A DNA stretch of 36,569 nt, from NCBI GenBank assembly GCA_035489715.1, contig DATHAP010000150.1, forward strand, positions 1-36,569. The letters are read 5' to 3'. The position numbers were made by a program, and so were the translations under genes. Origin of the DNA: Actinomycetes bacterium (GTDB lineage Bacteria; Actinomycetota; Actinomycetes; JACCUZ01). Shown piece by piece: positions 31,377 to 36,161 of the stretch. Position 1 is the first letter of the stretch. The number at the start of each line of letters is the position of its first letter. The notes beneath the pieces are model-generated. The model ran no database searches and was not told the origin of the DNA. It saw nothing but the letters and a program-made list of their open reading frames with translations.

Positions 31377-32453
31377 TCACAGCGGCCGCGGGGCGACCCG
31401 GCTCACCGTGTCCCCGCCGACCGCCCACAGCACCCCGCCGGCCGAGGTGAGGGCGGCGACGTCGTGCCCGACGTCCAGCGAGCCGAGCACGTCGCCGGTC
31501 GACGGCTCGATCCGCGTCAGGTGGCCGCGGAAGCCCACGACCCGGGCCACCCAGCCCGAGCCCGCCAGCTCGGCCACACCCAGGGTCAACCCGGGCAGCT
31601 CGGTCTCCGTGAGCACCTCTCCGGTGACCGGGTCGATCTGGGACACGCTGCTGCCGCAGATCCGCGACGACACCCAGACGCTGCGCCCGACGGCGACCCC
31701 GCCGCAGGCGCCGTCGACCGGGACGGTCGCCACCACCTGGTCGGTGCGCGGGTCGATCCGGACCACAGCGTCGTCGCTGTCGACGTTGACCCAGACCGAT
31801 CCGGGCCCGACCGCCACATGGCCCGGTCCCTGCGGTGGGGTGCCCATGGGCACGGTCGCGACGACCTCGCGGGTCGCCGGGTCGATCCGGCTGACCGACG
31901 CGGTCGCAGAGCCGTGGTGGTTGGTGACCCAGACGGCGTCGGTGCCGGCAGCGAGCTGCCACGGGTCGTCGCCGACCGCGATCCGGTCCGTGACGGTGTC
32001 GTCCGACGGATCGATCCGTACGACGGTGTCCTCGGTCGGGCTGGTGGCCCAGACGGCGCCCGCACCGAACGCGACGAAGGTCGGCTCGCCGGCCGCGTTG
32101 TCCGCGCCGCGGCCGCCGATGTCGATCCTGGCGCGGACCTTGCCGGTCCGCCGGTCGAGCCGGACCACCTCGAGGCGCCGTGGCACGGTGACCCACACCG
32201 ACCCCGAGCCGACTGCCAGGTGGAACGCCCCACGGACCTTGGTGCGGTCCACGACCTCGGCGACGACCGCCGTGCCGTCGGTCACCACCGCAGCCGGCGT
32301 CGTCGACGGGGTCGTGGTCGTCGTCGTGGTTGCAGACGTCGTCGTGGTCGCGCCGGCGGCTGTCGGCTCGTCCCCCGCGCAGGCCGCCAGCAGGCAGGCG
32401 ACCAGGATGCCCACGGCTGCCCCCGTGAGCCGTTGTCCGGTGGTCCTTCCCAT
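31377..32453 (-). CDS. beta-propeller (YVTN/Vgb-like) lipoprotein
   Basis: A 358-residue exported lipoprotein. The signal peptide ends in lipobox LAAC (Cys25), and a Thr-rich linker follows (about 34-53). Then come about seven repeats of 40-45 residues, each containing a pattern such as VAVGSGSVWV, VAFGAGAVWA, LAAGTDAVWV, VAVGPGSVWV and VAVGRSVWV followed by RIDP-T-GEVV, which builds a seven-bladed propeller. No catalytic residues can be named; a binding or sensing role is likely. ATG 32453 has a GGGGGAGGA Shine-Dalgarno sequence. It is divergent from an ECF sigma factor whose partner has the same propeller type. Confidence 0.9.
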   Translation of the reverse strand: MGRTTGQRLTGAAVGILVACLLAACAGDEPTAAGATTTTSATTTTTTTPSTTPAAVVTDGTAVVAEVVDRTKVRGAFHLAVGSGSVWVTVPRRLEVVRLDRRTGKVRARIDIGGRGADNAAGEPTFVAFGAGAVWATSPTEDTVVRIDPSDDTVTDRIAVGDDPWQLAAGTDAVWVTNHHGSATASVSRIDPATREVVATVPMGTPPQGPGHVAVGPGSVWVNVDSDDAVVRIDPRTDQVVATVPVDGACGGVAVGRSVWVSSRICGSSVSQIDPVTGEVLTETELPGLTLGVAELAGSGWVARVVGFRGHLTRIEPSTGDVLGSLDVGHDVAALTSAGGVLWAVGGDTVSRVAPRPL

Positions 32454-32592: not shown

Positions 32593-33129
32593 GTGGACGA
32601 GAGCCAGGTGTGTGCGGGCGCCGTGGTGGCCGACCCGCCCACCGGCGACCTCGTCGGCTCCCTGTTCGCCGCCCACTACCCGCGGCTGGTCCGGCTCGCC
32701 GTGCTCCTCGTCGACGACCAGGAGACCGCGGAGGACGTGGTGATGGACGCCTTCACCGGTCTGCACCGCCGGCGGCTCTGGCTGCGGGACCCCGACGACG
32801 GCTTCCGCTACCTGCGCTCGGCGGTGCTCAACGGGTCGCGCAGCAAGCTGCGGCGCCGCCGCACCGTGCGCAACACCGACCTGCCGGCGCCACCGACGAC
32901 GACCGGCTCCGCCGAGGAGGAAGCCCTCCAGCGCTCGCGCGAGCGCGAGCTGGTCGCCTACGTGCGTGGCCTGCCCCAGCGTCAGCGCGAGGTCGTCGTG
33001 CTGCGCTACTACGGCGGCCTCAGCGAGGCCGAGATCGCCGCCGAGCTGCGGATCAGCCGAGGGACGGTGAAGGCCCACGCGTCCCGGGCCCTCGACGCAC
33101 TCGCGCGGGCGATGGAAGGGGGTCGGTGA
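32593..33129 (+). CDS. ECF RNA polymerase sigma factor, SigE family
   Basis: A 178-residue sigma-70 factor with only regions 2 and 4. Region 2 runs about 20-90 (LFAAHYPRLVRLAVLLVDDQETAEDVVMDAF, FRYLRSAVLNGSRSKLRRRR) and region 4 about 115-170 (LPQRQREVVVLRYYGGLSEAEIAAELRISRGTVKAHASRAL, a clear helix-turn-helix). GTG 32593 has AAGGGG 8 nt upstream. The stop overlaps the next ATG by one base (TGATG), the usual position for a membrane anti-sigma or signalling partner. Confidence 0.94.
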   Translation: MDESQVCAGAVVADPPTGDLVGSLFAAHYPRLVRLAVLLVDDQETAEDVVMDAFTGLHRRRLWLRDPDDGFRYLRSAVLNGSRSKLRRRRTVRNTDLPAPPTTTGSAEEEALQRSRERELVAYVRGLPQRQREVVVLRYYGGLSEAEIAAELRISRGTVKAHASRALDALARAMEGGR

Positions 33130-34262
33130 TGACGACGCCGACGACGCAGCCGTGGGACCTGGAGCGCGCGCTGGAGTCCGCCCTCGCCGCCGAGGCCGAC
33201 GTGGCGGAGATCGACGTCCACGCGGCGGCCAGCCGGCTGGAGGAGCGTCTCGACCGATCACGCCGGACGGCGCGGGTCGTCCTGGCCGGCGCGGCTGCCG
33301 CCGCCGTCGTGCTCGTGGTGCTGCTCGTCCAGGGCGGTCCGGACGATCGGCGCAGCGCACCCCCGGCCGAGGACGACCGCCAGGGCGGGCAGGTGACCGC
33401 GGTGGTACCGCAGGGCGCCGGGCTCACCGACATCGGCCAGCCGGTCTACCGGGTCGGCAGCGACGGGCGCACCGCCTGGGTGACCGACCAGACCCAGCGG
33501 CTGACCGGCGTCGCGCTCGACGGCGGTGACATCACCACCCGGATCGAGCTGCCCGGCGAGGACGGCAGCGCGTTCGACGTCGAACCGGTCGGTGACCTGG
33601 TCTGGGTCAGCCTGCGACTGTCCAACCTGGTGGTCGCGGTGGACCCGCGCACCGGTGAGGTCGTGCACCAGGTCCGCACGACCGGCGACCGCGGGCCGTT
33701 CGGCATGGCCGTCGACGGCGGTGATCTCTGGTCGACCGCCGGCGCCACCCTGCTGCGGATCGACGCCGCCACCGGGGAGCTGCTCGACACCATCCAGCTG
33801 CCGCCGACCACCCGCGCCTACGACGTGGCCGTGGCCGGCGGCTCGGTGTGGGTCACCGACGTGGGTCCGCCGTTCCGCGTCCTGCGCTACCAGCCCGGGC
33901 GGGACCGGCTGGTGCCGACGCTGCTGCCCGCCTCCCCCGCCGGCATCGCCGCGACCGCCGACGCCGTCTGGGTCGCGATGGTGGCCCGCCCCGAGCTGCT
34001 GCGCGTCGACGCGGAGTCCGGGCTCGTCACGGACCGCGTCGAGCTGCCCGGCAACGGCCTCGCCGTCACGGCCACCGGCCCCTCGGTGTGGGTGGGGCTG
34101 CCGGAGATCGACCAGGTGGCCGAGGTCGACGCCAGGTCCCGACGGCTCGTGCGGCTGCTGCAGGTGGGGAGCTACCCGCCGTTCGCCCGGCAGTACGGCG
34201 ACATGCTGCTCGTCACGAGCAACCTGGGGGGCGAGCTGGTCCGGGTGCCGCTCGGCGACTGA
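33129..34262 (+). CDS. single-pass membrane beta-propeller, putative anti-sigma or sensor partner
   Basis: A 377-residue protein. A cytoplasmic N-terminal part (1-47, LERALESALAAEADVAEIDVHAAASRLEERLDRS shape) is acidic and helical, one membrane helix lies at about 49-67, and an extracytoplasmic seven-fold propeller follows (GRTAWVTDQ, GDLVWVSLR, GDLWSTAG, GGSVWVTDV, ADAVWVAMV, GPSVWVGLP, GDMLLVTSN). There is no zinc-binding anti-sigma motif, so the short N-terminus would have to hold the sigma factor by itself. Coupling to the ECF gene and topology suggest that the propeller senses an outside ligand and controls the sigma factor; this is inference. Confidence 0.88.
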   Translation: MTTPTTQPWDLERALESALAAEADVAEIDVHAAASRLEERLDRSRRTARVVLAGAAAAAVVLVVLLVQGGPDDRRSAPPAEDDRQGGQVTAVVPQGAGLTDIGQPVYRVGSDGRTAWVTDQTQRLTGVALDGGDITTRIELPGEDGSAFDVEPVGDLVWVSLRLSNLVVAVDPRTGEVVHQVRTTGDRGPFGMAVDGGDLWSTAGATLLRIDAATGELLDTIQLPPTTRAYDVAVAGGSVWVTDVGPPFRVLRYQPGRDRLVPTLLPASPAGIAATADAVWVAMVARPELLRVDAESGLVTDRVELPGNGLAVTATGPSVWVGLPEIDQVAEVDARSRRLVRLLQVGSYPPFARQYGDMLLVTSNLGGELVRVPLGD

Positions 34263-34274
34263 CCGCCGGTTCGG

Positions 34275-35102
34275 TCAGACGGTGACGCCGAAGGCCTCGG
34301 TGAAGGCCTTCTTCGCGTAGGCGTTGCTGGCGTAGGCGAACCCGTTGTCGCCCCAGCCGGTGCCCCAGCTGTTGCGGATGATGAAGCCGGTCGAGGTGTA
34401 GCCCACCATCGCGACGGCGTGCCCACCCCGGGCGGTGGCCGGCTTGTACGTCGTCAGCTTGCCCTTGCTCGCCGTTGCGTTGTCCCAGGTGCTGTCGACG
34501 TCGAGCCGGGTCAGGATCGGCCCGTTCTGGGCCAGCCAGGTGCGCCAGTCGGTCGGGTCGGTGCCGAGGTTGAAGTACGCGGCGATCTTGAGCTGGGTCG
34601 ACAGGGCGTAGAACGTGGCCACCTCCCCGGCGTAGAGCTTGCCGGACGCGAACGGCAGCACCGAGTCCTGCACGGCACCCCACTTGCGCGACACGTCCAA
34701 CGCCGCCTTGAGCCAGGTGCCGTCGGACTCGATGAAGGTCGTGGGCTGGGCCACGAACTGGTCGGTCTCCTTCGCGGCCATCCAGATGAAGCGCGGTGAG
34801 AGACGCGGCGTCTTGGGCAGCCGGCCGGCCTGCACGAAGTGCCAGCGCAGCACGCCCTCGGCCGTGGCCCACCCGACGCACGAGCCGGTGTCCTTCTGGT
34901 CGCCGACCGTCCACCAGTCCTCGCGCAGGTCGCGGGACGCCGGGATCGCGCGGGCGGGCGCCCGCATCACCCCCGCGTCGGCGGCGTTGTGCATCCGCCA
35001 GTCGGTCTCGGTCCCGGGCGACGGCTGGCAGTTGAGCACCCGGCGCACCCCGCCGACCTCGGTGCTCGCAACGCCCGGCACGGGCTTCTCCTTGATCGCC
35101 AC
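34275..35102 (-). CDS. papain-like cysteine peptidase (family C1)
   Basis: A 275-residue protein. The peptidase domain starts near residue 52 (AIPASRDLREDWWTVGDQKDTGSCVGWATAEG shape): oxyanion Gln69, nucleophile Cys75, catalytic His228 in GGHAVAMVGY and Asn244 in IIRNSWGTGWGDNGFAY. No signal peptide or membrane helix is seen, so export would need another route or the enzyme is intracellular; a 50-residue N-terminal part may act as a propeptide. GTG 35102 was chosen because GGAGG lies 5 nt upstream; ATG 35120 is an alternative. A chagasin-like inhibitor gene is divergent, and the stop lies 12 bp from the convergent propeller gene. Confidence 0.93.
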   Translation of the reverse strand: MAIKEKPVPGVASTEVGGVRRVLNCQPSPGTETDWRMHNAADAGVMRAPARAIPASRDLREDWWTVGDQKDTGSCVGWATAEGVLRWHFVQAGRLPKTPRLSPRFIWMAAKETDQFVAQPTTFIESDGTWLKAALDVSRKWGAVQDSVLPFASGKLYAGEVATFYALSTQLKIAAYFNLGTDPTDWRTWLAQNGPILTRLDVDSTWDNATASKGKLTTYKPATARGGHAVAMVGYTSTGFIIRNSWGTGWGDNGFAYASNAYAKKAFTEAFGVTV

Positions 35103-35174
35103 GGCGACCTCCTCCCCCATGCGGCGCGACCCGGCGCCGCTATGGTCGTGACGGTAGACGCAGGTCCGCCCCGC

Positions 35175-35555
35175 ATGGGAAAGGGCGGGCAAAGCCGCGG
35201 CGGCGGCCGAGCACCGGGACGGGTCGTGGACGAGTCCGAACGAGCGGTCGAGCGGGAGTCCCGGCGTGAGGTCACCGTCGGCGATGTCGTCGAGCTGAGT
35301 GTGTCCGACCTGCCCGGTGCGGGGTACCGCTGGGAGGTGCCTGCGCTCCCTCCCGGGCTGGCCGTCGTCGAGGACGACTGGGTGCAGCCCGACCCGCCGC
35401 CCGGCGTCGGGGCCGGCCGGGCGCGCGTGCTGCGGATCCGCGCCGACCGGACCGGCGAGTACGTCGTCCGGCTCGAGCTGCGCCGGCCCTGGGAGGCCGC
35501 CCCGGCCCGGGTGAGCGAGGTGCCGGTGTCCGTCACGGCTCCCGCTGGACCCTGA
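35175..35555 (+). CDS. chagasin-like cysteine peptidase inhibitor (family I42)
   Basis: A 126-residue protein from ATG 35175. The I42 fold is seen from about residue 31: EVTVGDVVELSV, the first binding loop DLPGAGYRWEVP (family NPTTGYxW), GVGAGRARVLRIRA (family GxGG...), GEYVVRLELRRPWE (family RPW loop). All three loops that enter a C1 active site are recognisable, though the first departs from NPTTG. There is no signal peptide. Starts at ATG 35142 or GTG 35226 (109 residues, the length of chagasin) are equally possible. It is divergent from the C1 peptidase, its natural target by context. Confidence 0.82.
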   Translation: MGKGGQSRGGGRAPGRVVDESERAVERESRREVTVGDVVELSVSDLPGAGYRWEVPALPPGLAVVEDDWVQPDPPPGVGAGRARVLRIRADRTGEYVVRLELRRPWEAAPARVSEVPVSVTAPAGP

Positions 35556-35594: not shown

Positions 35595-36161
35595 ATGACC
35601 GCCGAGCTCACCGTCCTGCACGCCGGCTATGCGACCGGTGAGGGCGTGGCCTCGAGCGTGGTGCTGGTCCGCGACGGCGCCTCTACGGTCGTCGTGGACC
35701 CTGGAATGGTCCGCAGCCCCTCGCTGATCCTGGACCCGATGACCACTCTCGAGGTGTCGGCCGGCGACGTCACGGACGTCGTCCTGAGCCACCACCACCC
35801 CGACCACACGTGGCACATAGCGCTGTTCCCGAACGCGCGGGTCCACGACGCGTGGGCGGTCTACCAGGGCGACCAGTGGGACGACCAGCCGGCCGAGGGA
35901 CGGGAGGTGTCGCCGTCGGTGCGGCTGATGGAGACGCCCGGCCACACCGCCCAGGACATCAGCACGCTGGTCGAGACCGCCGAGGGGCTGGTCGCCTGCA
36001 CGCACCTCTGGTGGTTCGCCGAAGGTCCGGCCGAGGACCCGCGGGCGACCGACCTGCCGGCCCTGCACGCCAGCCGCGAACGGCTGCTCGCACTCGAGCC
36101 GGTCCGGGTGGTGCCCGGGCACGGGCCGGCGTTCGTCCCCGGCCCGTCGACGCCAGGCTGA
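35595..36161 (+). CDS. MBL-fold metallo-hydrolase
   Basis: A 188-residue metallo-beta-lactamase-fold hydrolase. The metal motif H66-x-H68-x-D70-H71 is in LSHHHPDHTWH; a further His is in ETPGHTAQDIS, an acid-site His in LVACTHLWWFAEG (where Asp is more usual) and the last His in VVPGHGPAF. The compact size resembles MBLAC1-like proteins. The substrate is unknown. Its last 203 bp are covered on the other strand by the tail of the neighbouring open frame. Confidence 0.9.
   Translation: MTAELTVLHAGYATGEGVASSVVLVRDGASTVVVDPGMVRSPSLILDPMTTLEVSAGDVTDVVLSHHHPDHTWHIALFPNARVHDAWAVYQGDQWDDQPAEGREVSPSVRLMETPGHTAQDISTLVETAEGLVACTHLWWFAEGPAEDPRATDLPALHASRERLLALEPVRVVPGHGPAFVPGPSTPG

Follow-up and report, generated by a model that had tools for sequence, protein, structure and literature searches.

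Chagasin-type proteins of family I42 inhibit cysteine peptidases of family C1A with Ki values in the picomolar to nanomolar range (PMC2607524, PMC5014320). In the chagasin/ICP and cruzipain system a signal-less cytosolic inhibitor controls an endogenous C1A enzyme; the two are not described as adjacent genes, and the enzymes are eukaryotic, lysosomal and carry an I29 propeptide. The bacterial I42 protein Cip1 of Pseudomonas is exported, acts on host proteases and inhibits papain with a Ki of 4 nM (PMC5014320). A 2016 paper describes the function of bacterial chagasins as not yet elucidated and notes that most Pseudomonas that bear an I42 gene have no C1A peptidase for it to inhibit (PMC5014320). 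Protealysin and emfourin of Serratia are an intracellular bacterial protease and its own small inhibitor, encoded in one operon, and substrates are cleaved only when the inhibitor is missing (PMC9505478). Staphopain and staphostatin (C47/I57) combine a papain-fold bacterial protease, which is secreted, with a dedicated cytosolic inhibitor (see also PMC7863939).

The locus described here joins a C1A peptidase gene to an I42 inhibitor gene, and by analogy we think that it may represent a bacterial counterpart of chagasin and cruzipain, with which it shares both families, in an arrangement like that of protealysin and emfourin. Unlike Cip1, its inhibitor has no signal peptide and is encoded beside a C1A gene. 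Protealysin and emfourin offer the nearest working parallel, but one of analogy only, as that pair consists of an M4 metalloprotease and an inhibitor of an unrelated family in a co-directional operon, and staphopain and staphostatin also belong to other families. The C1 and I42 families are both already known, and NCBI names each of the two genes on a Priestia plasmid; in a literature search of partial coverage, with few subscription journals, we found no paper on adjacent prokaryotic C1 and I42 genes or on the signal-peptide split reported below.

The peptidase and inhibitor genes

The window, by which we mean the whole stretch of 36,569 nucleotides that was analysed, is contig C150 of a genome bin of 3.53 Mb in 231 contigs that is 98.5% complete. 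Two genes lie head to head at its right end (Table 1), and profile searches find in them the C1 peptidase and the I42 inhibitor that an earlier note on this DNA had proposed at these positions. The peptidase scores 54.7 bits against PF00112 (cut-off 20.7) across the catalytic domain and the inhibitor 53.9 bits against PF09394 (cut-off 27.2) over residues 44-123 of the reading that begins at ATG 35142. As these are the only matches to either profile in the genome, and as the divergent pair recurs within the order, the pairing in the window is more than chance.

Table 1. Features at the right end of the window.
Feature	Position	Strand	Remarks
C1A papain-like cysteine peptidase, 281 aa	34275..35120	-	PF00112 E 1.9e-14, ATG at 35120
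Chagasin-type (I42) cysteine peptidase inhibitor	35226..35555	+	PF09394 E 2.2e-14, likely GTG start
Divergent intergenic region common to both genes	35121..35225	.	105 bp with GTG start
Metallo-beta-lactamase-fold hydrolase	35595..36161	+	PF00753 E 3.2e-14

Three start codons are candidates for the inhibitor gene, namely GTG 35226 (109 aa), ATG 35175 and ATG 35142, and the first is the most likely, since relatives of the protein have equally short leaders. The start-to-start gap is then about 105 bp, as opposed to 21 bp with ATG 35142, and it measures about 41-113 bp in three related genomes (G005, G006, G253). A promoter scan of the intergenic region detected no sigma-70 consensus promoter. 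The gene for a metallo-beta-lactamase-fold hydrolase follows that of the inhibitor on the same strand after 39 bp and could be co-transcribed with it, but it probably stands outside the unit because it is not kept beside the pair in relatives. Elsewhere in the window, at 32593-34259 (+), an ECF sigma factor gene is followed directly by a gene for a protein that combines a short N-terminal portion, a single transmembrane stretch and a beta-propeller. The two resemble a sigma factor and its sensor or anti-sigma protein, here a propeller held in the membrane. Another propeller protein, which has a lipoprotein-like signal, is encoded divergently (31377-32453, -).

The catalytic residues Q75, C81, H234 and N250 of the peptidase are invariant in alignments of 24 relatives and of 34 sequences, and the Gln-Cys-His-Asn set is therefore complete, as had been claimed. 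The earlier note named the right cysteine and histidine but numbered them Cys75 and His228; they are Cys81 and His234 when counted from ATG 35120, which lies six codons upstream of the start that the note assumed. The protein has no match to the I29 propeptide, and a motif conserved in a 20-member alignment of its subfamily, R(V/I)LNC.PS..(T/E).DW, precedes the catalytic domain at residues 27-41. An AlphaFold2 model (pLDDT 90.1, pTM 0.88) has 297 matches in the PDB at E <= 0.001, of which the best among the matches listed are all papain-like; the closest fold is that of xylellain, a short prokaryotic C1A peptidase (3ois, TM 0.73/0.77), yet the two sequences are only 20% identical. Profile, catalytic set and modelled papain fold together confirm the assignment to peptidase family C1A, and the protein is predicted to be active.

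The three loops of the I42 protein (LPGAGYRW, GVGAG and RPW) are present. When compared with the I42 motifs NPTTG, GxG(G) and RPW, L4 (GVGAG) and L6 (RPW) are found, whereas L2 (LPGAG) is not canonical; chagasin has PTTG at this place. The PGAG form is common to the inhibitors of the window, G006 and G253, while most I42s in the alignment carry T before the glycine. The double substitution T31A/T32A in chagasin raises the Ki for cruzipain from 7.6 to 1065 pM, a 140-fold loss of affinity, but lowers that for cathepsin L from 7.3 to 1.8 pM, with no loss of affinity (PMC2607524). Since the effect differs by enzyme, PGAG in L2 neither settles the affinity of the window protein nor predicts a loss of inhibition. 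By sequence, its matches in the PDB include amoebiasin-2 (3.3e-5) and chagasin (0.002).

Recurrence of the pair and the two kinds of I42

Within the order, a C1 gene occurs in four of eight sampled genomes, I42 occurs in the same four, and all four pairs are adjacent and divergent. We searched 395 genomes of the class with PF00112 and PF09394 and found C1 in 34, I42 in 67 and both in 17, where 5.8 are expected (P 3e-6). The C1 and I42 domains lie 87-1028 bp apart in 14 of these 17 genomes, compared with 0.02 expected under random placement, so that the search for the pair in other genomes, for which the earlier note had called, finds linkage far above chance. A fifteenth pair (G129) is missing from this count because its C1 scores 20.3 bits, below the cut-off of 20.7. 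The pairs of the class are divergent, tandem or convergent and involve several C1 subtypes. A second sample, of 258 genomes from the class of a Caballeronia genome that carries a pair, has both families in five genomes, two of which encode them adjacently and two as one-chain fusions.

The window C1 falls within a tight subfamily, from which 20 members were retrieved that are 49-77% identical to it, the next relatives being about 30% identical or less. The subfamily is spread over Actinomycetota, Chloroflexi, Bacteroidota, Chlorobi, Proteobacteria, Myxococcota and one archaeal bin, a patchy distribution across phyla that is in keeping with published reports of horizontal transfer among prokaryotic C1A peptidases (PMC10380794). 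A phage origin was considered and rejected, as viral contigs and phage records hold no close relative and long matches there are only about 28% identical. Outside the window's class, where the search was anchored on the enzyme, I42 lies beside C1 at seven loci (L007, L015, L017, L020, L041, L070, L078), among them a divergent pair in Chloroflexi (L007), a tandem pair in an archaeon (L020) and further pairs in Chlorobi (L015) and Caballeronia (L017). On a Priestia megaterium plasmid C1 is followed by I42 after a gap of 23 bp, and a Deinococcus aetherius plasmid (NZ_AP026562, L152 1392-5709) encodes C1, a hypothetical protein, I42 and a caspase-domain protein co-directionally; the caspase-domain protein (PF00656) has a weak EF-hand match.

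The subfamily enzyme also occurs without any I42, in nine of 15 other genomes searched (some of them possibly incomplete), which indicates that not every carrier of the enzyme needs the inhibitor and argues against a strict or obligatory toxin-antitoxin pair; in type II-like systems the antidote would always accompany the toxin. We found no general replacement inhibitor beside the I42-less members. Their neighbors include an adjacent DUF3574 lipoprotein (L012) and an unassigned 118-aa ORF (L006), as well as peptidoglycan hydrolases, namely an Amidase_2 protein on a Microvirga plasmid (L144 3203-6179), an M15 protein (L019 4986-6252) and a GH108 protein (L006 5001-7969). The Microvirga enzyme itself is preceded by a long N-terminal segment in which a peptidoglycan-binding match falls below threshold.

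The distances among C1 proteins and among I42 proteins correlate in eight tight-subfamily pairs (Mantel r 0.84, exact P 0.0015), a value that comes from few pairs and to which shared ancestry contributes. For C1 and I42 alike, the pair from Chloroflexi falls together with those from actinobacteria and the Chlorobi pair with that of Caballeronia, which fits joint transfer. The flanks of five pairs (G000, G005, G006, G253, L007) have nothing in common except the pair itself, and a conserved flanking pathway was accordingly rejected for this sample. Three proteins (L047 from Salinivirgaceae, L146 from G525 and L147 from G608) are single-chain fusions in one open frame, with a signal-peptide-like start and with I42 N-terminal of C1, in the place that a propeptide would take; in L146 the Pfam matches are I42 at 3.9e-16 and C1 at 8e-47. 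A model of the natural fusion L047, built as a view of how the two domains dock, is of too low confidence for this (pTM 0.50, pLDDT 61.5). Taken together, linkage, parallel divergence, differing flanks and fusions support the view of a protease-antiprotease module put forward in the earlier note.

Neither protein of the window has a signal peptide, in agreement with that note, and we compared the leaders of 54 I42 genes of the class using a simple, crude hydropathy rule. By this rule, a signal peptide is present in none of 15 linked I42s versus 35 of 39 unlinked ones (Fisher 4e-10), a comparison that was chosen after seeing the data and that covers one class, whose species are not independent. 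Two unlinked signal-less I42s from one genus (G110 and G170; L196, L198) have no C1 neighbor and are exceptions to the linkage rule. Of the others scored as signal-less, one is only about 100 bp away from the end of its contig (G249), and for the other the rule did not accept a leader that is lipobox-like (L177). In the three genomes that encode both C1 and I42 but not side by side (G307, G345, G369), I42 begins with a strongly hydrophobic leader. The linked C1s of actinobacterial pairs show no convincing signal peptide, and an intracellular location of these pairs is thus supported by sequence. Across the family, I42 does occur mostly without the peptidase (50 of the 67 class genomes have no PF00112 match), an outcome that had been named as evidence against the module; it does not bear on the cytosolic type, because the I42s without C1 are nearly all exported.

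Linked I42s with export signals are found outside the class, in L015 and L017 (signal or lipobox), L041, L070 and L078. The C1 protein has a signal-like start as well in L070 and L078, but it has none in L015 and L017, where an exported-looking inhibitor beside a signal-less enzyme is a poor fit to a purely cytosolic pair.

Proposed restraint of the peptidase and alternative readings

Computation shows that both families are present with the catalytic residues intact, that the two genes are linked repeatedly and diverge in parallel, that fusions exist and that the actinobacterial pairs lack signal peptides. Our reading of them, to which we give a probability of about 0.8, is that the two genes form a compact, horizontally mobile unit whose inhibitor acts in the cytosol to restrain the C1A protease encoded next to it. 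The unit would consist of a cytosolic C1A peptidase of a distinct short prokaryotic, xylellain-like subfamily and a cytosolic chagasin-type inhibitor, the three loops of which are expected to bind the active-site cleft of the neighboring enzyme. We infer that binding would be tight and inhibitory, so that the peptidase would be held in check until the level of the inhibitor or the location of the enzyme changes, and that the pair may be regulated from the common intergenic region.

According to the broadest view, prokaryotic chagasins fall into exported orphans directed against foreign proteases and cytosolic ones tied or fused to C1, and the tied pairs are a widespread mobile conflict or cell-death device; we regard this as doubtful. 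The roles in cell death, development or defence that the earlier note had suggested received no direct support, and a PADLOC search was blank, for which reason anti-phage defence was rejected.

In an effector-immunity system, the peptidase would be delivered into competitors and I42 would protect the producer. The patchy, horizontally spread distribution and the copy on a small plasmid of Priestia are consistent with this, as are the peptidoglycan hydrolases that adjoin some subfamily members (M15 in L019, the amidase in Microvirga, GH108 in L006) and the exported-looking I42s of L015 and L017, whose C1 proteins have no signal peptide. On a Vibrio plasmid (NZ_MZ496297, L155 1-3699) I42 is found in an island of small genes behind an RHS-repeat toxin-like gene, an immunity-gene-like position, and the authors of the protealysin-emfourin study propose an equal role for their pair (PMC9505478). 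However, Pfam and PADLOC searches find no secretion marker or delivery domain in the window C1, which also has no signal peptide, the supposed immunity gene is absent from the nine subfamily genomes mentioned above, and both proteins look cytosolic in actinobacterial pairs. We therefore consider effector-immunity unlikely for the window, although possible in some lineages.

A programmed cell-death or stress switch, in which the freed protease damages the cell in the manner of a toxin-antitoxin system or a caspase, appears decidedly improbable. The divergent common control region and the Deinococcus operon would suit such a switch, as would an I42 gene that lies amid toxin-antitoxin modules on an Acetobacter plasmid, but outside the actinobacteria the inhibitor is absent from most genomes that have the enzyme subfamily, no PADLOC match was obtained and no caspase or toxin-antitoxin gene stands beside the window pair.

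Even less credible for the linked proteins is that the inhibitor is aimed at foreign C1 proteases of predators, hosts or phages and that adjacency to C1 is secondary. Such targeting is exemplified by Cip1, an exported protein that inhibits tomato proteases and comes from a genus that mostly lacks C1A (PMC5014320), and the majority of class I42s are exported and unlinked; the linked I42s, on the other hand, are signal-less, diverge in step with the C1 beside them and are linked to it far above chance. That the genes are chance neighbors is refuted statistically by 14 adjacent pairs against 0.02 expected, found in several orientations and accompanied by fusions.

If the cytosolic inhibitor does restrain its neighbor, the linked pairs supply natural partners, enzyme and inhibitor, for direct assay, and they offer a route to what bacterial I42s do. 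From the split in signal peptides one would predict internal targets for the signal-less linked I42s and external ones for those that are exported and unlinked. The secreted chains in which I42 precedes C1 raise the possibility that I42 may act as a built-in pro-domain, and such fusions may already be known.

Strongly diverged I42 proteins also occur about 1 kb from C1 genes. Three of them are of the RGARGYVWTW type (L093, L094 and L095, from G142, G332 and G378), and at a fourth locus (L148 in G540) the C1 protein bears C-terminal repeats rich in HWW.
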